From positions 764,840-828,839 of the forward strand of contig NZ_SSHH01000002.1 of assembly GCF_004965515.1 (NCBI RefSeq): a stretch of 64,000 nt of DNA, given 5' to 3'. Below, one piece after another: positions 7,614 to 29,773 of this stretch (position 1 is its first letter; each line of letters opens with the position of its first letter). This stretch comes from Alteraurantiacibacter aquimixticola. Lineage in GTDB: Bacteria; Pseudomonadota; Alphaproteobacteria; Sphingomonadales; Sphingomonadaceae. Below the pieces are notes generated by a model, which saw only the letters and a program-made list of their open reading frames with translations, did no database searches and was not told the DNA's origin. The position numbers and the translations under genes were made by a program.

Positions 7614-7987
7614 CGGACGATCGCATCATCCCTACCGGCAGGCGAACCAATTCGCGCCTGCACACGGAGATCCCGGCCCAGCTTATCACGCTGCGTGCCA
7701 ATCCCCGCATGAACCTGCGCGACCTGTCGCGCACGGGCGCGCATATCGAATGCGACGAAGCGCTCGTCAGGGGTGAGGACGTCGTGCTCAATTGGCTCGA
7801 ATTCGAAGCCTTCGGACGCGTCGTCTGGACATTGGGGAAACAGGCTGGGGTTGAGTTCGACGAACCGCTCGATCCAGAAGTGGTCACCGGCACCCGCCAG
7901 ATCATCGACAGCGGCCAGGTGGAACACACCCGGCAGGCCGCCTTCAGCGCCGCGCGCGACTGGTACCTGAACTCTCGCCAGATCTAA
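7610..7987 (+). CDS. PilZ-domain protein
   Basis: 125 aa single-domain protein. It shows the c-di-GMP binding pattern: an Arg-x3-Arg segment (RRTNSR, about 11-16) followed by DLSRTGAHIEC (Asp-x-Ser-x2-Gly) near residue 40, then beta strands ending in AGVEFDEPL. It would sense cyclic di-GMP in the cytoplasm and pass this to a partner not evident nearby. No other good start exists downstream, so ATG 7610 is used although it lies in a hairpin arm. Confidence 0.8.
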   Translation: MADDRIIPTGRRTNSRLHTEIPAQLITLRANPRMNLRDLSRTGAHIECDEALVRGEDVVLNWLEFEAFGRVVWTLGKQAGVEFDEPLDPEVVTGTRQIIDSGQVEHTRQAAFSAARDWYLNSRQI

Positions 7988-8106
7988 CTGCCCGAAAACC
8001 GGCAGCGTTTTTTGCACGCGCTTATGCAATCTTCGCAACTTCGCGTATATGGAGGTATCTCGCGCCGGCTGATACGGGCGGGCGCCCAACTACAAGAGGT
8101 CGTCCC

Positions 8107-8511
8107 ATGCCCCGCACCAGGCTCTATTCGCTCGATGAGCTCGATGACATTCCCGGCACCAAGGTGTTCAACGCGCGCCGCAGCCGCGAAGCCTATCACC
8201 TGCACAAGTTCTGCATGAGCCTGATGAAAGCGGAGAACCGCGAGGCGTTCAAGGCGGACGAACGCACCTATCTCGACCAGTTCAAGATGACCGAGGACCA
8301 GAAGCAGGCCGTGCTCGACCGCGACCTCGCCAAGCTGATCGAGCTGGGCGGCAACATGTATTTCCTCGTCAAGATCGCCAGCACCGACGGCTGGAGCGCG
8401 CAGAAGGCGGTCAGCTCCATGTCCGGCATGTCGGCCGACGAATATGCGCAAATGATGCTCGAAGGCGGCCGCTCGCCCGAAGGCCTCCGCTCCAAGAAGG
8501 AAGCCAAGTAA
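8107..8511 (+). CDS. ligA: Protocatechuate 4,5-dioxygenase alpha (small) subunit
   Basis: 134 aa all-helical subunit that caps the LigB active site. Recognisable LigA segments are DDIPGTKVFNARRSREAYHL near the start, CMSLMKAENREAFKADE, and LIELGGNMYFLVKIASTDG. The stop TAA is immediately followed by the ligB start. Together the subunits open the ring of protocatechuate, on which ferulate/vanillate and 4-hydroxybenzoate routes converge. Later steps (ligC, ligI, ligJ, ligK) are not in the window. Confidence 0.93.
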   Translation: MPRTRLYSLDELDDIPGTKVFNARRSREAYHLHKFCMSLMKAENREAFKADERTYLDQFKMTEDQKQAVLDRDLAKLIELGGNMYFLVKIASTDGWSAQKAVSSMSGMSADEYAQMMLEGGRSPEGLRSKKEAK

Positions 8512-15378: not shown

Positions 15379-16416
15379 CTATTCGGGATTTATATGGAAC
15401 ACCCTTTCGGCATTTCCATGACACAGGGCGTGCCTTTCGTCATCGGTGCATTCGAAATCATTGATGAAATCGACGGCCGGCTTCATCGGCTGGTAGGGAT
15501 AGTCGATCGCCCAGATCACGTTCTCCACGCCCATGCGGTCAATCGCATAGCGCAGGGCCAGCGGGTCTTCCACGCCGCTGGTGGTGAAGACGAAATTATC
15601 CTTGAAATACTCTTCCATGCTGCGCTTCGTCTTGGGGGCACGGCCAACTTCCTGCGCGCGGGAATTCATGAAATTGATGCGCCAAATGAAGAAGGGCACC
15701 ATCTCGCCCATATGCCCGACGCAGATCTTCAGGTTCGGGAAGTGATCGAACACGCCGCCTGCCATCATGCGGAGCATATTGGTGCCGACTTCGACGCCGT
15801 ATGCCCACATGGCTGAATCCATCGCATAGTCCATAAGCGGACCCTTCAGCGTGTCTGACGGGCCGCGCGGGTGGATATAGATCGTGGCATTGTGCGCCTC
15901 TGCCGCTTCGAAGATCGGCCAGAACTTGGGATCATCGAAATATTCGCCATTGGTGTGGCTGTTCACGACCAGGCCGTTGAGATTCAGCTCCGTCATCGCG
16001 CGCTCAACCTCCTTGGCGGCGCGCTTGGGCGAATGCGGGGCGAAGCTGGCAAGGCCGGCGAAACGCGACGGATATTTGCGGCAGATTTCCGCCATCCGGT
16101 CATTGCTGAGCGCCGCAAGCTCCGTGGCGGTATCCGCATCGAACATCTGCACCCCCGGCGCCGTCAGCGTCAGCAGGTGCATGTCCACGCCATACTCGTC
16201 CATTTGCGGCAGGCGCTGATTCTCGATGTCCTTCAGGCCTTCGAGGAAGTTCATCTTGCCATAACCGGTGGTGTCATGGTCCGCGTCGTAGATCCCGCCC
16301 ACCAGCAGCTTGTCAGAGCTTTGCGAGGGGCCGCGCGCAACCTTGCGCAATTCCTCTGCGACTTCGGGGATCGACCATGCTTCCTCGCATGCGATCAGAC
16401 GGCACTTGCTTCCCAT
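15379..16416 (-). CDS. Amidohydrolase-family enzyme, LigW/gamma-resorcylate decarboxylase-like
   Basis: 345 aa metal-dependent TIM-barrel enzyme. Features of the decarboxylase branch are an N-terminal ACEEAW in place of the HxH motif, LTAPGVQMF, GLVVNSHTNGEYFDD, IYIHPRGPSD, CVGHMGEMVPFF and the late Asp in VIWAIDYPYQP. SYK-6 LigW (5-carboxyvanillate decarboxylase) has the same series. Removing a ring carboxylate is the best guess; hydration or C-C hydrolysis cannot be excluded. GGGGAGAG precedes ATG 16416. It is divergent from a LigB-type dioxygenase across 126 bases. Confidence 0.72.
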   Translation of the reverse strand: MGSKCRLIACEEAWSIPEVAEELRKVARGPSQSSDKLLVGGIYDADHDTTGYGKMNFLEGLKDIENQRLPQMDEYGVDMHLLTLTAPGVQMFDADTATELAALSNDRMAEICRKYPSRFAGLASFAPHSPKRAAKEVERAMTELNLNGLVVNSHTNGEYFDDPKFWPIFEAAEAHNATIYIHPRGPSDTLKGPLMDYAMDSAMWAYGVEVGTNMLRMMAGGVFDHFPNLKICVGHMGEMVPFFIWRINFMNSRAQEVGRAPKTKRSMEEYFKDNFVFTTSGVEDPLALRYAIDRMGVENVIWAIDYPYQPMKPAVDFINDFECTDDERHALCHGNAERVFHINPE

Positions 16417-16542
16417 TAAACTCTCCCCCTCCTCTTTTGCGCGAGCCTAAGGCGGAGCATGGGTCTGCCGCAAACATTTTCGTGGGGTGCGCCAAAGTCC
16501 TCCTGTATTGCCGGATGCGGCCAGCCTCACCATTTGCATTCC

Positions 16543-17379
16543 ATGACCGAAACGACGACCGCCTCTACGCTCCCGACATACTATCTCAGCCATGGCGGCG
16601 GACCATGGCCGTGGATGCCCAATATGGCTCCGGCCTATGCCGTGCTCGACGCTTCGCTGAAGGCGCTGCGCCGCGAACTGGACGAGAAACCGCGGGCGGT
16701 GCTGGTGGTGACGGCGCATTGGGAGACGGAGGACTTTACCTTCTCCGCCGCCGAGCGGCCGGGCATGATCTACGATTACTACGGCTTCCCGCCGGAGACC
16801 TACGAGATCACCTATCCGGCCCCGGGCCTGCCCTCGCTCGCCGCGCGTGCAGCCGGCCTGCTGCGCGATGGCGGGATGACCGCGAATATCGACGCGGCGC
16901 GAGGTTTCGACCACGGCACCTTCAGCCTGATGCAGGCGATCTATCCGGAAGCCGCGATGCCGATCGTGCAGATGTCGATCCGCAAGGACTTCGATCCGGC
17001 GCTGCATGTCGAAGCCGGAAAGCTGCTGGCACCCTTACGCGACGAGGGCGTGCTGGTTGTTGGCAGCGGTTTGAGCTTCCACAACCTGCGCGCCATGGGG
17101 CCGGTGGGTCGCGATGCCTCGCGCGCATTCGACGGCTGGTTGCAGCAAGCGCTGCTGGGCGCGACGGGTGAGCCGCGCGCCAGCAACTTGTTAGACTGGG
17201 AAAAGGCCCCTGCCGCCCGCCATGTCCACCCGCGCGAGGATCACCTGATGCCGCTTCACGCGGCTGTCGGCGCGGCGATGGAGGAGGAGGCGCACCTCTC
17301 CTACCACCAGGAAGATTTCTTCGGGGCGATCACCGCTTCCAGCTTCCGCTTCGGCGACGCCCCGCTACCCGTCAGCTGA
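16543..17379 (+). CDS. Class III extradiol dioxygenase, DODA/LigB type
   Basis: 278 aa single-subunit LigB-fold enzyme. Likely metal ligands are His17 in YLSHGGGPWPW, the His in VVTAHWETED (near 58), and the HVHPREDHLMPLH region near 229. GFDHGTFSLM resembles the acid/base His segment. It would open a catecholic ring with O2; the substrate is unknown. It has no LigA-type partner. ATG 16543 is the best start (28 residues inside the longest frame). Its divergent partner is a LigW-like gene, a pairing that recalls biphenyl-type lignin dimer catabolism but does not prove it. Confidence 0.75.
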   Translation: MTETTTASTLPTYYLSHGGGPWPWMPNMAPAYAVLDASLKALRRELDEKPRAVLVVTAHWETEDFTFSAAERPGMIYDYYGFPPETYEITYPAPGLPSLAARAAGLLRDGGMTANIDAARGFDHGTFSLMQAIYPEAAMPIVQMSIRKDFDPALHVEAGKLLAPLRDEGVLVVGSGLSFHNLRAMGPVGRDASRAFDGWLQQALLGATGEPRASNLLDWEKAPAARHVHPREDHLMPLHAAVGAAMEEEAHLSYHQEDFFGAITASSFRFGDAPLPVS

Positions 17380-18268: not shown

Positions 18269-19246
18269 ATGAACCGCCCCGCCGCCGTGACCAAGGACGA
18301 AAGCTGGAGCTCGAAAGGGCTCGCCCAACGCGATGCGATCAGCGCCTGGCGTGACTGGGCGGCGAGCACGATCGCCCCGATCGAGGTGGAGCTGTTCGAC
18401 CCCAATGCCTTTGCGGCGCAATGGGTCAGCCACGGGATCGGCCAGCTGCGCCTGCTGCATATCAATGCACCCGCGCAGCGCGTCACCCATATTGGCGAGG
18501 AAGGCGCACCAATGCGCGCCTCCCCATCGATCCAGCTGGTCTATGCGCGCCACGGCGTGCTGCGCACCACCATGGCCGGGCGTACGTTCGACGTGGCGCC
18601 AGGGCAATTCGTGCTGCTCGACAACACCCGCTTCTACCAGATGGAAATGTCCACCGAACACGAATGCATCGACCTGATGATGCCGCAGGGCTGGCTGGAG
18701 AAATACTTGCCCGACCCCTCCACCCTGCTTGCCAGGCCGGTTTCCGCCAGCGCCGGATGGGGTGCACCCTTGGGTGCCTTGATCGAGACGATCCTCGACG
18801 GCGGGCTGGACGATGCCCCCCTGCCCCGCCCGCTGATTGCCGAGCAGTTCGGCAGCCTGCTGGCGCTCGCGACGGGCATGGAGGAAACGGACAAGGCTCC
18901 CCGGCACAGGAACCAGCTGGCCGCGCGCATCCTGCGGCGGATCGAAAGCGACTATGCCGACCCGGACCTTTCGCCTGAACTGGTCGCGCGCCAGGTGGGG
19001 ATTTCCAAGCGCTACCTCCAGACGCTGCTGGCGGCGAGCGGCACCAGCTTCGTGCAGGAACTCAACGCCACGCGGCTCGACCGGGCGAGCGAGCTGCTGG
19101 CCGACCCGCGCGCGGTGGGGTTGGCGATTGCCGATATCGCCTTTCGCACCGGCTTCCTCGATCCGGGATATTTCACCCGCCTGTTCCGCAAGCGCTTCGG
19201 CATCACCCCCCGCGAGTTCCGCGCGGGTAATGCGCCGAGGAGCTAG
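18269..19246 (+). CDS. AraC-family transcription regulator
   Basis: 325 aa. The N-terminal sensing half resembles the AraC-binding-like (FeaR-type) domain, with FDVAPGQFVLLDNTRFYQME. The C-terminal tandem helix-turn-helix contains LVARQVGISKRYLQTLLAAS and IADIAFRTGFLDPGYFTRLF, closed by FGITPREFR. I chose ATG 18269 (MNRPAAVTKDE); the longer open frame upstream overlaps a membrane-protein gene in antisense. The regulated operon is unclear: the divergent membrane-protein gene is the nearest candidate. Confidence 0.82.
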   Translation: MNRPAAVTKDESWSSKGLAQRDAISAWRDWAASTIAPIEVELFDPNAFAAQWVSHGIGQLRLLHINAPAQRVTHIGEEGAPMRASPSIQLVYARHGVLRTTMAGRTFDVAPGQFVLLDNTRFYQMEMSTEHECIDLMMPQGWLEKYLPDPSTLLARPVSASAGWGAPLGALIETILDGGLDDAPLPRPLIAEQFGSLLALATGMEETDKAPRHRNQLAARILRRIESDYADPDLSPELVARQVGISKRYLQTLLAASGTSFVQELNATRLDRASELLADPRAVGLAIADIAFRTGFLDPGYFTRLFRKRFGITPREFRAGNAPRS

Positions 19247-21803: not shown

Positions 21804-23642
21804 ATGAGCGATGCGCAAAAGGGATTCCCGCTTCCCAGCTCGGTGAAGGTCGTCCCCGGTACGGAGGAGGCGCAGGCCGCCTACCCCTATTACACCCAGT
21901 TCCAGCCCGGCGATGACGAGCGCTTCTGGTTCTACAATTCGATGCATTTCCCCGAGCCGATGCATCATTTCGACATGATCACGGCGGAAGCCGCCTATTG
22001 CGCGCTGGGGAGCTTCAACACCCGTGTACACGTGCTGCCCACCACCAAGGGCATCGATCATCGCGTCATCAACGGCCGCGTCTTTATCGGCGGCGTGCCG
22101 GTAACCGATCCGGCCGAGATCGAGGCACGCACGGCCGAATTCCAGCAGCGCGCCTTCTATTATTACGAGCACTGGGAGAAGCTCTACGACCAGTGGAAGG
22201 ACAAGATGAAGGCGCTGATCGCCGATGCGCAGGCGCTTCCGACGCCGCATCTACCCGATCTCGAGCCCATCGAAACCACCCATACCGGCAAGGGCGTGGC
22301 CGCCAATCACGAGCTGATCGACACATACCGGAAGACGCTCGAAGGCTACTTCCGCATGTGGCACCACCATTTCGAGTTCCTGCTGCTCGGATATGGCGCC
22401 TATCTGACCTTCTTCGATTTCTGCAAGAAGGCCTTCCCGGAGATTTCCGACCAGGCGATCAGCCGCATGGTCGCCGGTATGGAAGCCGAGATATTCAAGC
22501 CGGACGAGGAAGTGAAACGCCTCGCCCGCCGCGCCGTGGAACTGGGCGTGGATCAGCATTTCACCGATGACATGGATATCGACAAGGTGCTGGCCGATCT
22601 GGATGCGGTTGGAAACAGCGGCAAGGAATGGCTGGGCGAGCTGGAGACCAGCCGCAACCCGTGGTTCAACGTCAATGTCGGCGATGGTTTCTACCACTAT
22701 CACCGCAGCTGGAACGATGACCTCTCCATGCCTTTCGCGGCGCTTCCCGGCTATATCGAGAAGATCAAGGCGGGCGAGAATATCGAACGCCCGATGGACA
22801 GGCTGGTGGAGGAGCGCGAGCAGCTCGTCGCCGACTATCGCGAACTCCTCGATACCGATGAGGACAGGGCGACCTATGACCAGCTGATCGAGCTCGCGCA
22901 CCGCGTCTTCCCCTATGTCGAGGGTCACAAGTTCTATTGCGAACATTGGTACACGAACCTGTTCTTCAACAAGATCAGGGAATTCGGTGCCCTGTTGGTG
23001 GAACACGGCTTCTTCGCTCGCGAGGAGGACGTGTTCCACCTCACCCATTACGAGCTCGAAAGCGCGATTGTGGATCTGATGCTGAGCTGGTCCTCCGGCT
23101 CCGCTCCGATCGGCCCGCAGCGCTGGCCCGCGATCGTCGAACAGCGGAAAGCAGCCATCGCCACCTGGGCAGAACACACCGTGCCCCCGGCGCTGGGCCA
23201 TGTGCCCGACGTGATCGACGATCCGGCCATCGTAATGCTGTGGGGCATCACCCGCGAGAATCTCGACAGCTGGCTGTCCGATGGGACAAGCGATCCCAAC
23301 GAGCTGAAGGGCTTTGCCGCCTGCTCCGGCGTGGTCGAAGGCACGGCGCGCGTGATCAAGTCCGTCGCTGAAATCAGCCGTATCCAGCAGGGAGATATCC
23401 TCGTCTGCCAGGTCACCAATCCCACCTGGTCACCACTGTTCCAGAAGATCAGCGCGGCGGTTTCCGATATCGGCGGATCGATGAGCCACATGGCCATCGT
23501 CGCGCGCGAATATGGCCTGCCCGCCGTGGTTGGCACCGGCTCCGCCACGCTCAAGATCAAGGACGGCGCGCGCATCCGTGTCGATGGCGGTAAGGGCACG
23601 GTAAGCATCCTCGATAATGAGCCGGTGCTGGAGGACGCGTGA
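21804..23642 (+). CDS. Aryl-ketone phosphotransferase, phosphohistidine (PEP-synthase-like) subunit
   Basis: 612 aa. The C-terminal fifth is a PEP-utilising mobile domain: IQQGDILVCQVTNPTWSPLF then GGSMSHMAIVAREYGLPAVV, with the phosphorylated His at about 562. The N-terminal 450 residues are helical and rich in Trp, Tyr and His, and do not match the PEP/pyruvate barrel of PEP synthase, so the acceptor is probably not pyruvate. The ATP-binding half is a separate gene at 24133. This split matches AcvA/AcvB of SYK-6 and HpeH/HpeI of Rhodococcus, which phosphorylate the 4-hydroxyl of acetovanillone-type ketones, and resembles phenylphosphate synthase. A strong leader hairpin lies just upstream. 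Confidence 0.75.
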   Translation: MSDAQKGFPLPSSVKVVPGTEEAQAAYPYYTQFQPGDDERFWFYNSMHFPEPMHHFDMITAEAAYCALGSFNTRVHVLPTTKGIDHRVINGRVFIGGVPVTDPAEIEARTAEFQQRAFYYYEHWEKLYDQWKDKMKALIADAQALPTPHLPDLEPIETTHTGKGVAANHELIDTYRKTLEGYFRMWHHHFEFLLLGYGAYLTFFDFCKKAFPEISDQAISRMVAGMEAEIFKPDEEVKRLARRAVELGVDQHFTDDMDIDKVLADLDAVGNSGKEWLGELETSRNPWFNVNVGDGFYHYHRSWNDDLSMPFAALPGYIEKIKAGENIERPMDRLVEEREQLVADYRELLDTDEDRATYDQLIELAHRVFPYVEGHKFYCEHWYTNLFFNKIREFGALLVEHGFFAREEDVFHLTHYELESAIVDLMLSWSSGSAPIGPQRWPAIVEQRKAAIATWAEHTVPPALGHVPDVIDDPAIVMLWGITRENLDSWLSDGTSDPNELKGFAACSGVVEGTARVIKSVAEISRIQQGDILVCQVTNPTWSPLFQKISAAVSDIGGSMSHMAIVAREYGLPAVVGTGSATLKIKDGARIRVDGGKGTVSILDNEPVLEDA

Positions 23643-24136
23643 TGACACGCGACGAGGACTCGTCTGATGGGGCTGGCTGGTCCGAACGGCAGATGCGGAA
23701 GGTCAGCTCTCGAACCGAAGTTGATTCGAGAAGGGGAAACCCTTCGATTGCCCTTCGAGGATCGGCTCCTGATGTCGTTCGATTCTTCTCGTCCGTCTCA
23801 ACGCCGCCGCCGCTGTTTAGGGTGATGGGTTTCGGAGGGGGACTATACGGCTGGCTCCATGATGCGAGAATTCCAGCCGGCCATGTGAAGTTATATTTTT
23901 TGACTGCGTTGTGGCTGCCCGTGATTCCAGTTCACGCTTACGCTGTAACGCCGGTGGATCGAGGCTTTCGCTTTCATGCTTCGATAAACCTTTTCAACTT
24001 GGTTAGGGCATTTCGAGGACGGGTTTTTCCGCTCTATCTAACCGCATTAATAGAAGGGGTCGGCTGGTTGATTGCGTTCGGCACAGTGATTGCTCTGGTC
24101 TATGGGGCGTTCTATTGGTTGAGGTCGTTGCTGTGA
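23642..24136 (+). CDS. Unknown membrane protein inserted in the phosphotransferase operon
   Basis: 164 aa. The first 60 residues are polar; then come a hydrophobic stretch around VKLYFLTALWLPVIPVHAY and a C-terminal transmembrane helix (WLIAFGTVIALVYGAFYWL). I recognise no family. The ATG overlaps the upstream TGA (TGATG) behind GGAGG, and the stop overlaps the next GTG by four bases, so it is fully coupled to the operon. By eye its DNA is clearly richer in A and T and uses codons unlike its neighbours, which suggests later acquisition. It separates two subunits expected to act together. Confidence 0.55.
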   Translation: MTRDEDSSDGAGWSERQMRKVSSRTEVDSRRGNPSIALRGSAPDVVRFFSSVSTPPPLFRVMGFGGGLYGWLHDARIPAGHVKLYFLTALWLPVIPVHAYAVTPVDRGFRFHASINLFNLVRAFRGRVFPLYLTALIEGVGWLIAFGTVIALVYGAFYWLRSLL

Positions 24137-25182
24137 GCAGTTTCAACGCCGTCGCCTGGTTTGCCGATGTCGGCATTGCCGATCGCCCTACCGTGGGCGG
24201 CAAGGGCGGTTCGCTGGGCGAATTGACCAGCGCGGGCATTGCCGTGCCGCCCGGCTTCGTGGTGACCACTTCAGCCTTCGAAACTTTCCTTGCGGCTCTC
24301 GAAGCGCGTGAGCCGATCCGCCCGCTGGTGGAAGCGCTCGACCCGCAGGACCATGGCGCGGCGACCAAGCTGTCCGAACTATTGCGCGCCCGCGTGATGG
24401 AAGAGCCAATGCCGGCACAAGTCGAGCAGGCGATCACCGATGCCATGCGCCAGCTCTGCCCGGATGGCGAGCCGGTGGCCGTGCGCTCCTCCGCCACCAC
24501 GGAAGATGCCGAAGATGCGAGCTTTGCCGGCCTGCAGGACACGTTCCTGTGGGTGCTGACGCCGAAGGACATGGCGCACAAGGTGCGCGAATGCTGGGGC
24601 AGCCTCTATTCGGTCGAGAGCATGACCTATCGCCGCAAGCAGGGCTTCCCTGAAGACCAGGTGGCGATGGCCGTGGTTGTGCAGCAGATGGTCGATGCCA
24701 GATGCGCTGGCGTGATGTTCACTCGTTCACCCACCACGGGCGACAAGTCTGTCATCACTATCGAGGGTGCATGGGGCCTCGGCTCCTCTGTCGTCTCGGG
24801 CGAGGTGACGCCGGACAAATGGGTGCTCGGCAAGATCACCGGCGAGATCAGCCAGCGCGACATCTCCGACAAGCATGCGCGGCAGGTACCCGCCGACAGT
24901 GGCGGAATTGTCGAGCTGGAGAATGACGAGGACATGCGCAAGGCGCCCTGCCTCACCGACGATGAGCTGATGGGCCTGCGCGAAGTGGGTCGCAGGATCG
25001 AGCGGCATTACGGCAAGCCGCAGGATATCGAATGGGCTCTCGACAAAGAGGGCAACATCCTGCTGCTGCAATCCCGCCCGGAGACCGTATGGTCGATGAA
25101 AGATGCCGAGGCCAAGCCCGTCGCGGCGCCAGTCGACAATCCGATGGCGCATGTGATGAACATCTTCGGAGGGCGCAAGTGA
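24133..25182 (+). CDS. Aryl-ketone phosphotransferase, ATP-binding (PPDK/PEP-synthase N-terminal) subunit
   Basis: 349 aa covering only the ATP-grasp part of PEP synthase. Visible motifs are VGGKGGSLGELTSAGIAVPP, AVRSSATTEDAEDASFAGLQ, the GVMFTRSPTTGDKSVITIEG segment, and the terminal ILLLQSRPETVW. It should take phosphate from ATP and pass it to the His of the 21804 gene product. The GTG at 24133 gives MSSFNAVAWF and a 4-base overlap with the previous stop; a TTG at 24115 is less likely. Known two-gene systems of this type are AcvAB and HpeHI for hydroxyacetophenones and PpsAB for phenol. Confidence 0.8.
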   Translation: MSSFNAVAWFADVGIADRPTVGGKGGSLGELTSAGIAVPPGFVVTTSAFETFLAALEAREPIRPLVEALDPQDHGAATKLSELLRARVMEEPMPAQVEQAITDAMRQLCPDGEPVAVRSSATTEDAEDASFAGLQDTFLWVLTPKDMAHKVRECWGSLYSVESMTYRRKQGFPEDQVAMAVVVQQMVDARCAGVMFTRSPTTGDKSVITIEGAWGLGSSVVSGEVTPDKWVLGKITGEISQRDISDKHARQVPADSGGIVELENDEDMRKAPCLTDDELMGLREVGRRIERHYGKPQDIEWALDKEGNILLLQSRPETVWSMKDAEAKPVAAPVDNPMAHVMNIFGGRK

Positions 25183-25649
25183 GCCGTCTGTCCGGCAAGG
25201 ACATTGCCGAAATCGCCAAGCTGCTCGACGAGAGCCACTTCACCTCGCTCGACTTGCAGATGGGCGAGTTCAAGCTGCGCATCCGCCGCGATGGCGGCGG
25301 CGGTGGCGGCTGGTCCGAGCGCGAGGTGGACGAGGTGGAAGCGGCTCCCGCGCCTGCTCCCTCGCCTGCACCTTCTGCCGCTGCACCCGCTGCTGCGGCC
25401 AGCGACGAGGTTGACGTCCCCGCCCCGCTGCTCGGCAATTTCTACGCCGCGCCGCGTCCGGGCGAACCGCCCTTCGTGGCCGTGGGGGACAAGGTCGGCC
25501 CCGACACCACCATCGGCATTATCGAAGTCATGAAGCTGATGAACCCGATCCGCGCGGGCGTTGCGGGCACGATCACCGCACTCCTCGCCGAAAACGGCAC
25601 GGCGGTGGAGGAAGGCCAGGCGCTCATCCGCGTGAAGGTGGACGGCTGA
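25179..25649 (+). CDS. Biotin carboxyl carrier protein (AccB-like)
   Basis: 156 aa. The N-terminal SGKDIAEIAKLLDESHFTSL and EFKLRIRRDG mirror AccB. An Ala/Pro linker (about 54-75) follows, then a biotinyl domain with EVMKLMN, the biotinylated Lys at about 119. It starts at GTG 25179 and overlaps the ATP-binding subunit by four bases. It should carry carboxybiotin from a biotin carboxylase to the carboxyltransferase encoded next. A dedicated carrier inside this operon supports a separate ketone carboxylase rather than acetyl-CoA carboxylase. Confidence 0.88.
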   Translation: MSRLSGKDIAEIAKLLDESHFTSLDLQMGEFKLRIRRDGGGGGGWSEREVDEVEAAPAPAPSPAPSAAAPAAAASDEVDVPAPLLGNFYAAPRPGEPPFVAVGDKVGPDTTIGIIEVMKLMNPIRAGVAGTITALLAENGTAVEEGQALIRVKVDG

Positions 25650-25668
25650 TGGCGATTGTTTCTTTCCT

Positions 25669-25747
25669 CGTCATTCCCGCGAAGGCGGGAATCCAGATTG
25701 AGGCGCTCGTGGCTCCGCGCTGGATCCCCGCCTTCGCGGGGATGACG
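25669..25747. repeat. Interspersed palindromic element, family B
   Basis: CGTCATTCCCGCGAAGGCGG at the left and CCGCCTTCGCGGGGATGACG at the right form a long inverted repeat with an internal AATCCAG/CTGGATC pair. It lies in the gap between the carrier and carboxyltransferase genes. It is the only copy of this family seen in the window. Confidence 0.75.
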
Positions 25748-25772
25748 AACGGGTCGGAAAGGTACTCGCGCC

Positions 25773-27233
25773 ATGGCTAAGATTGGCATCGTTGAAACGT
25801 CGCTGCGAGACGGTAACCAGTGCCTGTGGGGCGCGCTGGGTGTGGATACCGCCAAGACGCTGACCATCGCGCCTGCGATGGAGCGAGCAGGCTATCGCGC
25901 TATCGATTTCACCACCTCCACTCATATGGGCGTGGCGGTGCGCTACAAGCAGGAGGACCCGTGGGAGCGGATCCGCGGCATGGCGGAGATCTGCAAGGAC
26001 ACGCCCTTGCAGTTCCTCTCCACCGGCTTCCGCTTCATCGCATGGGAAACGGCGACGCCCGAATTCATGGAGCTGGCCTTCCGCACGCTCGCCACCAACG
26101 GCATTCGCCGCTTCGCACTGGCGGACCCGATGAACGATGCGCAGGCGAACGCCGACGTCGCCAAGATGGTCAAGCGCGCGGGCGGCGATCAGGTGGTGGG
26201 GGCGCTCGTCTATTCGATCAGCCCGATCCATGACGATGCGCATTATGCCGAGGCGGCCCGCATCATGGCCGCCAGCCCCGATATCGACGCGCTCTACATC
26301 AAGGACCCCGGCGGCCTGCTGACGCCCAAGCGCGCGCAGACGCTGATCCCTGCGATCCTGGCCGAGATCGGTGACAAGCCGCTCGAACTGCACAATCACT
26401 GCACCATCGGCCTTGCCGAACCGGCTTGCCTCGAGGCGGCGGACCTCGGCGTGGCGGCGATGCAATGCGCCAGCGGCGGCGCGGCGGACGGGACCAGCAA
26501 CCCGCCGATCATGCGCATGATCCGCAACCTGCGCGCGCAAGGCCATGAGGTGGAAATCGACGACGAGGCAGCGCAGGAAGTCGCCGACTTCTGGACCGCT
26601 GCGGCTGAGGCGGAAGGCCTGCCCACCGGCAGCCCGATGGCTTTCGATGCCGCCTATTTCCAGCACAACCTGCCCGGCGGAATGGTCGGCACCATGCGCC
26701 GCCACCTCGCCGACCAGAATGTGCCGCATCTGGAACAGGCGGTGATCGAGGAGATGGGCCGCGTTCGGCAGGAGCTTGGCTGGCCCATCGTGATGACGCC
26801 CTTCGCCCAGATGCTGCAGACGCAGGCGATGATGAACGTGACCGGCAAGGGACGCTGGGAGATTATCCCGGACGAGATCATCCGCTTCGCCATCGGCAAG
26901 TTCGGCCGCCCCAATGCGCCCGTCGATCCCGACGTGATGGACCGCATCATGTCTAATCCGCGCACCAAGGAGCTGGAAGCCGAAACAGGCATGGCGGACT
27001 TGAAGACGCTCAGGAAGAAGATCGGCGAGACCCTGTCCGACGAAGAATTCCTGCTGCGCGCCACCATGCCTGCTGAGCTAGTGAACGCCATGCAGGACGC
27101 CGGTCCTGCCCCACGCGAATACGATCCCGATACGGTGGCGGTGATGGAACTGCTGCGCACCGTCCTCTCCCGCCGCGATGTCGACAGCTTTGGGCTGGAG
27201 AAAGAGGACTTCAAACTTGAGGTCTCCGCGTGA
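25773..27233 (+). CDS. Biotin-dependent carboxyltransferase (OadA/pyruvate carboxylase CT-like)
   Basis: 486 aa TIM-barrel plus C-terminal region. The HMGL-like start ETSLRDGNQCLWG supplies the metal-binding Asp. ALYIKDPGGLLTP carries the Lys that is carbamylated in pyruvate carboxylase, and LELHNHCTIGLAEP supplies the paired His metal ligands. No biotin domain is fused; the carrier is the preceding gene. In the acv and hpe systems an enzyme of this type carboxylates the methyl carbon of activated acetovanillone to give vanilloylacetate. The substrate here is inferred from the operon, since oxaloacetate decarboxylase has the same fold. Confidence 0.78.
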   Translation: MAKIGIVETSLRDGNQCLWGALGVDTAKTLTIAPAMERAGYRAIDFTTSTHMGVAVRYKQEDPWERIRGMAEICKDTPLQFLSTGFRFIAWETATPEFMELAFRTLATNGIRRFALADPMNDAQANADVAKMVKRAGGDQVVGALVYSISPIHDDAHYAEAARIMAASPDIDALYIKDPGGLLTPKRAQTLIPAILAEIGDKPLELHNHCTIGLAEPACLEAADLGVAAMQCASGGAADGTSNPPIMRMIRNLRAQGHEVEIDDEAAQEVADFWTAAAEAEGLPTGSPMAFDAAYFQHNLPGGMVGTMRRHLADQNVPHLEQAVIEEMGRVRQELGWPIVMTPFAQMLQTQAMMNVTGKGRWEIIPDEIIRFAIGKFGRPNAPVDPDVMDRIMSNPRTKELEAETGMADLKTLRKKIGETLSDEEFLLRATMPAELVNAMQDAGPAPREYDPDTVAVMELLRTVLSRRDVDSFGLEKEDFKLEVSA

Positions 27234-27246
27234 GACCCACCACTCC

Positions 27247-27360
27247 CGTCATTGTGTGGAGTGAAACGGCGGCGGCGAAGCTCGCCGTAGGCAACCAATC
27301 CAGAGTGGTTGCGCGCGACGCCCCGGATTGCCGCGTCGCCTGCGGCTCCTCGCAATGACG
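27247..27360. repeat. Interspersed palindromic element, family A, copy 2
   Basis: A divergent copy: the left end CGTCATTGTGTGGAGTGAAA is degenerate, the right end GGCTCCTCGCAATGACG is intact. It fills the gap between the carboxyltransferase and HAD genes. As with copy 1, the right end is followed by GAATTGGG and a ribosome binding site. Confidence 0.7.
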
Positions 27361-27377
27361 AATTGGGAAGACACTGC

Positions 27378-28205
27378 ATGACCATCCGCAAGCCGAAAGG
27401 CTTCATGTTCGATCTCGACGGGACACTGATCCTCTCCAACCGCAAGCTGGGCAGCTATGACCCCATCGAAGGCGCGGCGGAGGCCTTGGGCGAGCTGGAC
27501 CGGCTCGGCATCCCATGGCTCGCGCTGACCAATGGCAGCGCCTATCCGTCCCGCGTGCAAGGCCCGCGCCTGCGCGATGCGGGCGTGCCCGTGCCGGACG
27601 AGAAGCTGTTCACGCCTAACTCCGTAGCGGCCAAAGTGATCGCCGATCGCGGCTATTCCAACGTCCTCGTGCTCGGCCTCGAAAGCGTGGCGGAGGCGCT
27701 CACCGAAATGGGCGTCTCCTGCTCGATGCTCGGCGATGACGACGCGAAGCATGCCGACGCCGTCTATGTCGCCTGGCATCCCGATTGCGTGATGGACCAC
27801 ATCCACCTCGGCTGCGAGCGGGTGATGGACGGCGCCGCCTTCCTATCCGCCAGCGACGTGCCCTTCTTCGCCACCAAGGAAGGCCGCAGCTTCGGCTATT
27901 CCTGCGCGATCAACGGCGCGATCAACCGCGTGACCGGGGTAGAGCCGGAACCGACCGGCAAGCCCTCCGCACACGCAATGGAAGTGATCGCCGACACGCT
28001 AGGCATCGCCAAGGAAGATGTCGGCGTGGTGGGCGACGATGCGACGGCGGAAATGCTGATGGCGCGTGAGGCTGGCGCGATCGGCATCGCCGTCACCTCA
28101 GGCTCCACCAGCGCCGAGGAATGGGCCGCCCAGCCGCCCGAAAAGACACCGCATCTGGTGATCGCCAATATCGGCGAACTGGTGGAGGCCTGCGGACTGG
28201 GTTAA
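27378..28205 (+). CDS. HAD-superfamily phosphatase (NagD/p-nitrophenylphosphatase-like)
   Basis: 275 aa. Motif I is FMFDLDGTLILSN (Asp12 nucleophile, Asp14), motif II is LALTNGSAYPS (Thr-Asn), and the late GVVGDDATAEMLMAREAGA holds the metal-binding acidic pair, giving a HAD-IIA type protein. SYK-6 AcvF, at the same place in its operon, dephosphorylates phospho-acetovanillone; that role is likely here. I chose ATG 27378 because the upstream frame runs through a repeat element. The last 71 bases of the gene are duplicated downstream. Confidence 0.75.
   Translation: MTIRKPKGFMFDLDGTLILSNRKLGSYDPIEGAAEALGELDRLGIPWLALTNGSAYPSRVQGPRLRDAGVPVPDEKLFTPNSVAAKVIADRGYSNVLVLGLESVAEALTEMGVSCSMLGDDDAKHADAVYVAWHPDCVMDHIHLGCERVMDGAAFLSASDVPFFATKEGRSFGYSCAINGAINRVTGVEPEPTGKPSAHAMEVIADTLGIAKEDVGVVGDDATAEMLMAREAGAIGIAVTSGSTSAEEWAAQPPEKTPHLVIANIGELVEACGLG
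28131..28201 (+). repeat. 71-bp direct repeat, copy 1 (3' end of the HAD gene)
   Basis: Identical to 28675-28745. It starts CAGCCGCCCGAAAAGACACC and ends CGGACTGGG, followed by TTAA here and CTAA in copy 2. This copy is the coding end of the HAD phosphatase gene. Confidence 0.92.
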
Positions 28206-28214
28206 GCCAGCGGC

Positions 28215-28625
28215 ATGAACGCAGTTGTGCGCCTTGTTGTGCCCACCTTAGTGCTGCTATCGCTTGCCGCCTGCGCATCCAGGGAAACGATTCCACTGGA
28301 GGATGTCCTCGCATCGGACCTCTCCGGCGATGAATTGATTGATGCCTACTTCGACAGGCTTACCTATCTGAGCAGTGATGCCGACCTGTTCGTGGCTGAG
28401 CTCGAAGAGGCGGGCTTCATCGCCTCCCTGCCAGGCCGTGAGGAGTTCCTGCTCCAGAATTCATCCTATCACTGCAATGTCTGGGAATATTACGACCAAG
28501 AGACGCCGATGTGGGCACTGATCCAGGCATGCCACGTCAAACATACGGGCGAGATCGAGTTGCGCCGCTTTGGCATCGCCCGAAAGAACATGACCGAGGA
28601 CGAACTCGGCGAAGGTGTGGATTGA
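28215..28625 (+). CDS. Small lipoprotein of unknown function
   Basis: 136 aa. The lipobox LSLAAC places the lipidated Cys at about residue 20. The mature part is acidic (LASDLSGDELIDAYFDRLTY) and has two further cysteines, in SSYHCNVWEYYD and ALIQACHVKHTG, that could form a disulfide. I do not recognise a family. The gene lies between two copies of a 71-bp direct repeat, so it seems to have entered between the HAD gene and bioB. It would sit at the outer or inner membrane facing the periplasm. Confidence 0.65.
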   Translation: MNAVVRLVVPTLVLLSLAACASRETIPLEDVLASDLSGDELIDAYFDRLTYLSSDADLFVAELEEAGFIASLPGREEFLLQNSSYHCNVWEYYDQETPMWALIQACHVKHTGEIELRRFGIARKNMTEDELGEGVD

Positions 28626-28674
28626 CCCTCTGCTATTCCATCAACGAAATGGTCCCGCGCGCGGCGGCGGCTCG

Positions 28675-28745
28675 CAGCCGCCCGAAAAGACACCGCATCT
28701 GGTGATCGCCAATATCGGCGAACTGGTGGAGGCCTGCGGACTGGG
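28675..28745 (+). repeat. 71-bp direct repeat, copy 2
   Basis: An exact duplicate of the HAD gene's last codons, including a stop codon, placed just before bioB. It is not preceded by a start or the rest of the gene, so it is a fragment. The spacing to copy 1 is 544 bases. Confidence 0.92.
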
Positions 28746-28759
28746 CTAACACCGCGCGC

Positions 28760-29773
28760 ATGACCGAGACCATCCGCACCGACTGGACGCGCGAGGAAAT
28801 CGCCGCGCTGTTCAATTTGCCCTTTACCGAATTGCTATTCCGCGCCGCAGAAGTGCATCGCCAGCACCACCGGCCGGACGAGGTGCAGCTGTGCACGCTG
28901 CTCTCGATCAAGACCGGCGGTTGCCCGGAGGATTGCGGCTATTGCTCGCAAAGCGTGAAGGCCGATAGCGGGGTCGAGGCGACCAAGCTGATGGATGTGC
29001 GCGAGGTGCTGCAGCGCGCGGCGCAGGCCCGCGATGCCGGATCGCAGCGCTTCTGCATGGGCGCCGCATGGCGCAATCCCAAGGATCGCGACATGCCCAG
29101 GATCGTCGAGATCGTGAAAGGCGTCTCCGCCATGGGCATGGAAACCTGCATGACGCTGGGCATGCTGGAGCCGCATCAGGCCAAGCAACTCGCCGAAGCG
29201 GGCCTCGATTATTACAATCACAATGTCGACACGGGGCCCGAATATTACGAGCGCGTGATCTCGACGCGATCCTATGAAGACCGGCTCGATACGCTTGCCA
29301 ATGTCCGCCAGGCGGGCATCAATGTCTGCTCGGGCGGCATCGTCGGCATGGGCGAAACGCGCGAGGACCGGGTGGGCTTCGTCCACACGCTCGCCACGCT
29401 GGAGCGGCACCCCGAAAGCGTGCCGGTGAATGCGCTGGTGCCCGTGAAAGGCACCGTGCTGGGCGACATGCTGGCCGATACGCCGCTTGCGAAGATCGAC
29501 GATATCGAATTCGTGCGCACCGTGGCCGTTGCGCGCATCGCCATGCCGATGAGCATGGTGCGCCTTTCAGCCGGGCGCGAGAGCATGTCCGAAGCGACGC
29601 AGGCCATGTGCTTCATGGCGGGCGCGAACTCGATCTTCACCGGCGACAAGCTGCTGACCGCGCCCAATGCGGGTGACGACGAGGATGCGGCCATGCTCGC
29701 GCGCCTCGGCATGAAGCCGCTCGAAGGCGAAGAACCCGCTCGGGCGTGCAAGGCTGTGGAGAAGGCGCAATGA
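28760..29773 (+). CDS. bioB: Biotin synthase
   Basis: 337 aa radical-SAM enzyme that inserts sulfur into dethiobiotin. The cluster motif is [13 protein letters not shown] near residue 54. [48 protein letters not shown] and the second-cluster region [20 protein letters not shown] are all BioB features. No bioA, bioD or bioF lies nearby. Its place directly behind a biotin-dependent carboxylase cluster suggests selection for co-expression, so that the carrier protein is biotinylated when the pathway is on. It overlaps the next gene by four bases. Confidence 0.93.

Follow-up and report, generated by a model that had tools for sequence, protein, structure and literature searches.

How can a biotin-dependent carboxylation pathway operate when its gene cluster lacks the biotin carboxylase (BC) for its carrier? 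The question is raised by a cluster at positions 21804 to 29773 of a 64,000-nucleotide stretch (hereafter the window) of contig NZ_SSHH01000002.1 of Alteraurantiacibacter aquimixticola, which is part of a 3.43-Mb genome of five contigs. A first-pass annotation had recognized six genes, encoding kinase subunit A, kinase subunit B, a biotin carrier, a carboxyltransferase, a HAD phosphatase and the biotin synthase BioB, and Pfam and NCBIfam matches bear out all six, in this order and all on the plus strand. It had also held that the published acv and hpe systems use this same set, which is incorrect: those systems include a BC gene, as described in the accessible part of PMC9618137, and the window genome has no such gene. 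The missing BC gene is the point overlooked. The reading that we favor, with moderate confidence, is a working acv/hpe-type hydroxyphenylethanone pathway that has no dedicated BC and in which charging of the carrier falls to the housekeeping AccC.

The BC gene of the relatives codes for about 450 amino acids and lies between the carrier and the carboxyltransferase genes. At this position the window has a gap of 123 bp (25650 to 25772), which contains a palindrome with 29-bp arms at 25668 to 25748. The carrier-carboxyltransferase spacing is 1355–1664 bp in BC-bearing loci, including that of Sphingobium (lignivorans) SYK-6, and 3–231 bp in loci without the gene (BC-less). A tblastn search of the whole 64-kb window with the BC of a relative gave a best match of E = 3. 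Three BC domains were found in the genome, those of AccC (450 amino acids, encoded beside AccB), which is its only free-standing BC (accBC), of a fused 697-amino-acid alpha subunit with a carrier domain of its own, and of urea carboxylase. These three are 49, 47 and 46% identical to the cluster BC of Altericroceibacterium xinjiangense (locus L031), while five other family genomes have cluster BCs of 72–82% identity to it and genome G008 has one that aligns in two pieces, at 73 and 78%. A dedicated cluster BC is absent from the whole genome. The possibility of a BC displaced downstream was also considered and rejected: the frames that hold the BC-like matches beside bioB in loci L033 and L037 are 685 and 709 amino acids long, and a domain scan of the former, in L033, detected both BC and carrier domains.

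Apart from this gap, the cluster is orthologous to acvABCDEF of SYK-6, for which the facts used here come from the available parts of PMC9618137 and PMC13101465 and from the SYK-6 locus itself (L102). Kinase pair, carrier, carboxyltransferase and phosphatase follow one another in the same order in both, with an AraC homologue upstream, and the kinship with acv proposed by the first-pass annotation stands, the identities being 86, 71, 46, 72 and 61% for kinase A, kinase B, carrier, carboxyltransferase and phosphatase, respectively. SYK-6, however, has the BC gene, for AcvE, between carrier and carboxyltransferase, and its carrier is of another type. Dikinase subunit A (21804 to 23642, 612 amino acids), the AcvA/HpeH orthologue with substrate-binding and swivel domains, matches the phosphoenolpyruvate-utilizer mobile domain PF00391 (E 3.5e-23) and, over its full length, NCBIfam PRK08296. 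Its phospho-histidine, His562, is located within SDIGGSMSH in an alignment with 20 homologues, in agreement with the T/SxxGGxxxH motif that holds His581 of HpeH (available part of PMC12167813). Subunit B (24115 to 25182, start codon uncertain) is the ATP-grasp orthologue of AcvB/HpeI (PPDK_N, E 2e-102). For the carrier gene (25179 to 25649) the probable start is GTG 25179, which overlaps the stop of kinase B; the gene product matches Biotin_lipoyl (E 3e-15) with the biotinyl lysine in EVMKLMN. The phosphatase (27378 to 28205; scanned from a longer start at 27309) carries HAD-IIA domains and is the orthologue of AcvF/HpeD.

The carboxyltransferase (25773 to 27233), the AcvD orthologue with HMGL-like and PYC_OADA domains, is the sole PYC_OADA match in the genome and falls with that of SYK-6 into one supported clade (100/100, 42 rows). 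Its residues Asp13, Lys177, His207 and His209, to which we assign presumed catalytic roles by analogy with pyruvate carboxylase and OadA, are invariant in all 17 rows of the alignment. Oxaloacetate decarboxylase and pyruvate carboxylase were rejected as identities for this protein. The site that reads WGGATF in the solved pyruvate/oxaloacetate enzymes is replaced by TTSTHMG in 15 of the 17 rows (TTSTHMA in L056 and TSSTNLS in L058), and the scores stay below the cut-offs of the respective models (277 bits against 402 for PRK09282, pycB, and 234 against 756.5 for TIGR01108, oadA). No oadB/oadG or pycA partner was seen among the scanned neighboring open reading frames (ORFs). Kinship with oxaloacetate decarboxylase, which the first-pass annotation had named as evidence that would overturn its view, was thus not found on any of these three counts.

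The same applies to phenylphosphate synthase (PpsAB), the second enzyme so named. Its kinase pair is homologous, yet subunit A is only about 45% identical, and the 45% identical kinase of Azoarcus KH32C is encoded beside ppcA, B, D and G, carboxylase genes of another kind; a scan of 30 ORFs from 12163 to 42848 of the window gave no match to phenylphosphate carboxylase (PpcABCD) subunits. Another proposal is that the kinase acts on a different phenol (phenol or 4-cresol) instead of an aryl ketone. Kinases of the family are indeed known for phenol and 4-cresol, according to the accessible part of PMC12167813. We regard this proposal as improbable, since kinase A is 83–88% identical to those of 15 family genomes, SYK-6 included, but 45% to the phenol-type and 41–42% to the P450-linked kinases, and both of the latter have different partner genes. 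The P450-linked pair is that of R. oxybenzonivorans (kinase A 41.5%), which is by our own inference probably of the cresol type. In R. leguminosarum a kinase A of 55% identity lies beside a set of carrier, BC, carboxyltransferase and HAD genes.

Outside the sphingomonads, an enzyme set of the same kind is encoded by hpeHICBAD(EF) of Rhodococcus rhodochrous GD02. The available part of PMC9618137 describes assays of the GD02 kinase, carboxylase and phosphatase, and a carboxylase of three components, the carrier, the carboxyltransferase and BC. Unlike the window cluster, the GD02 operon includes BC (HpeA) and, downstream, a CoA ligase and a hydrolase. For sequence comparison the BC-bearing cluster of Rhodococcus JS3073 was used in place of GD02; its kinase A is 45% and its carboxyltransferase 42% identical to those of the window. 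The order of genes is carrier, BC, carboxyltransferase in L102, L056 and L058, and carrier, carboxyltransferase, BC for GD02 in Table 1 of PMC9618137 (a source available in part), which leaves a difference either in gene order or in labeling. The same partly available source describes XccBCA of Aromatoleum aromaticum EbN1 as the HpeCBA-homologous, biotin-dependent carboxylase of a 4-hydroxyacetophenone route. XccBCA, likened here by description rather than by sequence comparison, has three subunits including BC, unlike the window cluster.

Loss of a catalytic subunit could mean that the cluster is decaying and that its remainder is no longer a carboxylation pathway, and two ORFs found only in this genome do sit between its genes. 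One, of 165 amino acids with a hydrophobic C-terminal half (23639 to 24136, plus strand), overlaps the stop of kinase A; it has no Pfam or NCBIfam match and is absent from the 80 relatives' loci described below and from 60 other genomes. The other, a lipoprotein-like ORF of 136 amino acids (28215 to 28625, plus strand), likewise has no Pfam or NCBIfam match and occurs in none of the 80 loci. It is flanked by two copies of the 3′ end of the HAD gene (82 bp, 95% identical, at 28131–28212 and 28675–28756, 544 bp apart), an arrangement suggestive of an insertion or a duplication. The "inserted genes" mentioned in the first-pass annotation are probably these two ORFs. Nevertheless, the remaining genes are open, the catalytic residues are kept, and the ratio of nonsynonymous to synonymous substitution rates (dN/dS), calculated against up to five close relatives, is 0.055–0.281 for the five cluster genes (0.16–0.22 for kinase A with four relatives; 0.055–0.085 for the carboxyltransferase with five), indicating that these genes are kept. 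Together with the retention of the BC-less form in 36 of 78 scorable relatives, this makes decay very doubtful.

These relatives were collected by scanning genome contigs with the 17-row carboxyltransferase alignment, the best 80 of 435 being kept as named loci; they overlap a set of 16 family genomes holding kinase A (L102, for instance, comes from the SYK-6 genome, G144), so that the two sets are not independent. L093 and L095, which are cut off by contig edges and for which the BC status is undeterminable, were left out of the counts and of the carboxyltransferase tree. Among the 78 scorable loci 36 are BC-less, mostly from Erythrobacteraceae, and 42 BC-bearing, and a cluster BC is absent genome-wide from nine of the 16 family genomes. 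A search of 398 genomes across the phylum with kinase A recovered only three family members. Built from 81 rows (the 78 scorable loci, two plasmid loci and the window), the carboxyltransferase tree requires four changes of BC state, all forced by supported branches, with BC-less placements in Korobacteraceae, in Novosphingobium sp. B 225, and in Erythrobacteraceae with the BC-bearing Altericroceibacterium nested inside. By the genes compared, the window holds a known pathway in a form without BC, and this form recurs in nature. No report of BC-less acv clusters was found in the titles and abstract openings of the acetovanillone and acv literature searched. The available part of PMC9618137 mentions "various combinations" of hpe homologues in diverse bacteria, shown in a supplementary figure, and the BC gap may already be drawn there.

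AccC is proposed as the donor because it is the only free-standing BC here and in most of the BC-less relatives searched. Of 16 BC-less genomes reached through named loci, 14 hold no BC of more than 50% identity, and the cluster BC was recovered in four BC-bearing controls. A single free-standing frame of BC size was found in 16 of the 25 BC-less genomes searched, and all 13 of these frames that were fetched adjoin accB. The other nine are five acidobacteria, the genomes of L070 (Aurantiacibacter xanthus) and L090 (A. rhizosphaerae), that of L089 with further frames of 438–624 amino acids, and that of L067 with none; since not even AccC turns up in the last, its data must be incomplete. The substrate, the reaction steps and the partnership with AccC are what we infer from this gene set. 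Subunits A and B would move the beta-phosphate of ATP via His562 to the phenolic hydroxyl of a 4-hydroxyphenyl methyl ketone, predicted to be 4-hydroxyacetophenone, acetovanillone and/or acetosyringone, a transfer modeled on HpeHI and PpsAB as described in the accessible part of PMC12167813. AccC of acetyl-CoA carboxylase would then carboxylate the carrier, the phospho-ketone would receive the CO2 on its acetyl carbon through the carboxyltransferase, and removal of the phosphate by the HAD enzyme would leave an aroylacetate, to be cleaved by other enzymes. For the sharing of one BC there is a precedent in mycobacterial AccA3, which is common to several acyl-CoA carboxylases, but AccA3 is a fused BC-carrier protein serving acyl-CoA carboxylases and not a separate BC for an aryl-ketone carboxylase.

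Charging by the BC domain of the 697-amino-acid alpha subunit or by some BC other than AccC is unlikely in our estimate, though it carries some weight. Such proteins are present in the window genome, and the genomes of L070 and L090 hold other complete sets of carrier, BC, carboxyltransferase and HAD genes. The L070 genome has BCs of 59, 56 and 53% identity and that of L090 one of 55%; the 59, 56 and 55% BCs are located in these other sets, and the 53% BC lies by a carrier. The alpha subunit, on the other hand, has its own carrier domain, a second OadA-type carboxyltransferase is missing from the window genome, and 16 of the 25 BC-less genomes have one free-standing BC-sized frame only. The carboxyltransferases of the extra sets (L167–L169) are 47–49% identical to that of the window, and no homologue of kinase A or B was found within the 10-kb stretches around them; they are perhaps systems using another kinase.

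If no BC takes part at all, carrier and carboxyltransferase would act as a transcarboxylase drawing CO2 from another carboxylated metabolite. In favor of such a mechanism, the genome has no dedicated BC gene, the closest solved structures include that of the 5S transcarboxylase subunit, and residue 208, between the metal-site histidines, is Asn in seven and Ala in two of nine BC-less rows but Ala in all six BC-bearing family rows. A transcarboxylase requires a second carboxyltransferase for the donor, for which no gene was seen in the cluster; moreover, BC-bearing and BC-less rows share the same presumed catalytic residues. We consider this mechanism quite improbable for the window cluster. 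The wider proposition, that BC was lost repeatedly (in Erythrobacteraceae, a Novosphingobium and Korobacteraceae) and that some lineages run a BC-free phospho-aryl-ketone transcarboxylase, appears very improbable.

The window carrier is of the BC-less type, with APRPGE, MNPIRAG and EEGQAL. In the carrier tree (78 rows, of only 91 columns; L093, L095, L112, L125 and L138, for which no carrier was found, and L123, with a carrier fragment, were omitted) all 32 BC-less sphingomonad carriers, that of Novosphingobium B 225 included, form one clade (100/98), and the BC-bearing sphingomonad carriers fall outside it. At AP(R/K)PG, Arg is present in 32/32 of the former, and Lys in 11/11 BC-bearing sphingomonad, 26/27 other BC-bearing and 5/5 acidobacterial BC-less carriers. 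Judged from these alignments, carrier type and presence of BC go together in sphingomonads; the data fit both an exchanged carrier(+BC) cassette and parallel adaptation as the origin of this pairing. In comparison with AccB (carriers omitted from the tree, L056 and L058 being left out), the mean identity to 21 AccBs is 39.7% for the BC-less (n = 32) and 35.0% for the BC-bearing sphingomonad carriers (n = 11), and of the 16 columns that separate the two sphingomonad consensuses AccB matches the BC-less at four and the BC-bearing at one. Against the AccB of the window genome alone, 31.0 of 80 residues are identical for 37 BC-less and 29.5 for 39 BC-bearing carriers. The likeness of BC-less sphingomonad carriers to AccB is suggestive only.

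A number of observations weigh against charging by AccC or against the pathway as such. The shift of carriers toward AccB is small and its rows are phylogenetically linked; the 27 other BC-bearing carriers average 37.0% identity to the AccBs, and the acidobacterial BC-less carriers (n = 5), at 33.5%, are without the shift. These five nest in the carrier tree among BC-bearing acidobacteria, and each of the genomes they come from has two or three free-standing BC frames (461–578 amino acids, 47–49%), so that a displaced BC is possible there. The extra BCs of the L070 and L090 genomes could serve the BC-less carriers, and in the window genome the fused 697-amino-acid alpha subunit could equally be the donor. 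The difference at residue 208 may reflect a difference in function.

The sixth gene, bioB (28760 to 29773; TIGR00433, 398 bits against a cut-off of 225), had been taken by the first-pass annotation for the cluster's own biotin synthase, an idea that is to be dropped. It is the single TIGR00433 match above the cut-off in the window genome; one bioB is present in 15 of the 16 cluster-bearing genomes, and none was found in the 16th searched, G103. In nine of 52 named loci with enough sequence, the phosphatase is followed by bioB at a distance of less than 6 kb. In five relatives (L067, L076, L077, L085 and L088) a methylmalonyl-CoA mutase homologue is followed by bioB and then by a homologue of a 685-amino-acid carboxylase alpha subunit. 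A role as a pathway gene or as an extra, pathway-specific copy was rejected on these grounds: bioB is the general biotin synthase of the cell, adjacent by chance. Because of its neighbors in the five relatives, its placement probably derives from a propionyl-/methylmalonyl-CoA block, other members of which would since have been lost in the window. No bioA over the cut-off was found in the genome (best 232 against 405 bits), and its two bioF-like genes (among C1:1319304, C3:26476 and C3:3325) are those for 5-aminolevulinate synthase and serine palmitoyltransferase. Because no convincing bioF and no bioA over the cut-off were found, bioB may serve the salvage of a precursor.

The trees also point to a separate history of kinase A. 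In the carboxyltransferase and kinase B trees the window stands beside L062–L066 (carboxyltransferase 91–95% identical), but its kinase A is only 81–82% identical to those of these loci that hold one, and groups instead with Aurantiacibacter L086 (89–90%) and the same-genus genome G014, with SYK-6 further out. The kinase trees (44 rows for A and 47 for B) are quick trees of a hand-picked subset, with support from the Shimodaira-Hasegawa-like approximate likelihood ratio test (SH-aLRT) only. Kinase A, the bearer of the substrate-binding domain, was probably exchanged on its own, because its tree position differs and the genome-unique ORF at 23639–24136 is located exactly at its 3′ end. A ChrR-type cupin was observed in acv-like loci of 10 of 81 sources (L119, L115, L116, L117, L120, L122, L124, L129, L133 and L141), and in L119 the cupin gene (7824–8471) is placed between those for kinases A and B.

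Upstream of the cluster, an AraC-type regulator gene (18269 to 19246, plus strand; AraC_binding_2 and HTH_18) was delimited with ATG 18269, picked by eye, as its start, the ORF list giving GTG 17432. Its product is 72% identical, over the matched stretch, to the homologue upstream of acvA in SYK-6. Among loci with more than 2 kb of upstream sequence, a same-strand AraC homologue no more than 4 kb upstream of kinase A was found in 35 of 38 in the sphingomonad block (L062–L104), and in 35 of 58 overall. Divergent genes for an amidohydrolase-2 and a LigB/DOPA-dioxygenase-like protein (15379–17379) lie upstream of the regulator and are possible further aromatic-catabolic genes, both weak candidates for membership in the pathway, the LigB-like gene matching the DOPA-dioxygenase model below its cut-off. 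Downstream of bioB are an LprI-like ORF, an O-acetylhomoserine sulfhydrylase-like enzyme and a SnoaL protein.

Should AccC be the enzyme that charges the carrier, a pathway for lignin monomers would be tied directly to fatty-acid synthesis at its first step, and five genes rather than six could suffice to transfer the pathway from one bacterium to another. The trees suggest that the substrate-binding kinase subunit is exchangeable on its own. BC-bearing and BC-less relatives, with their matching types of carrier, provide a natural system for finding the determinants of carrier-BC pairing.

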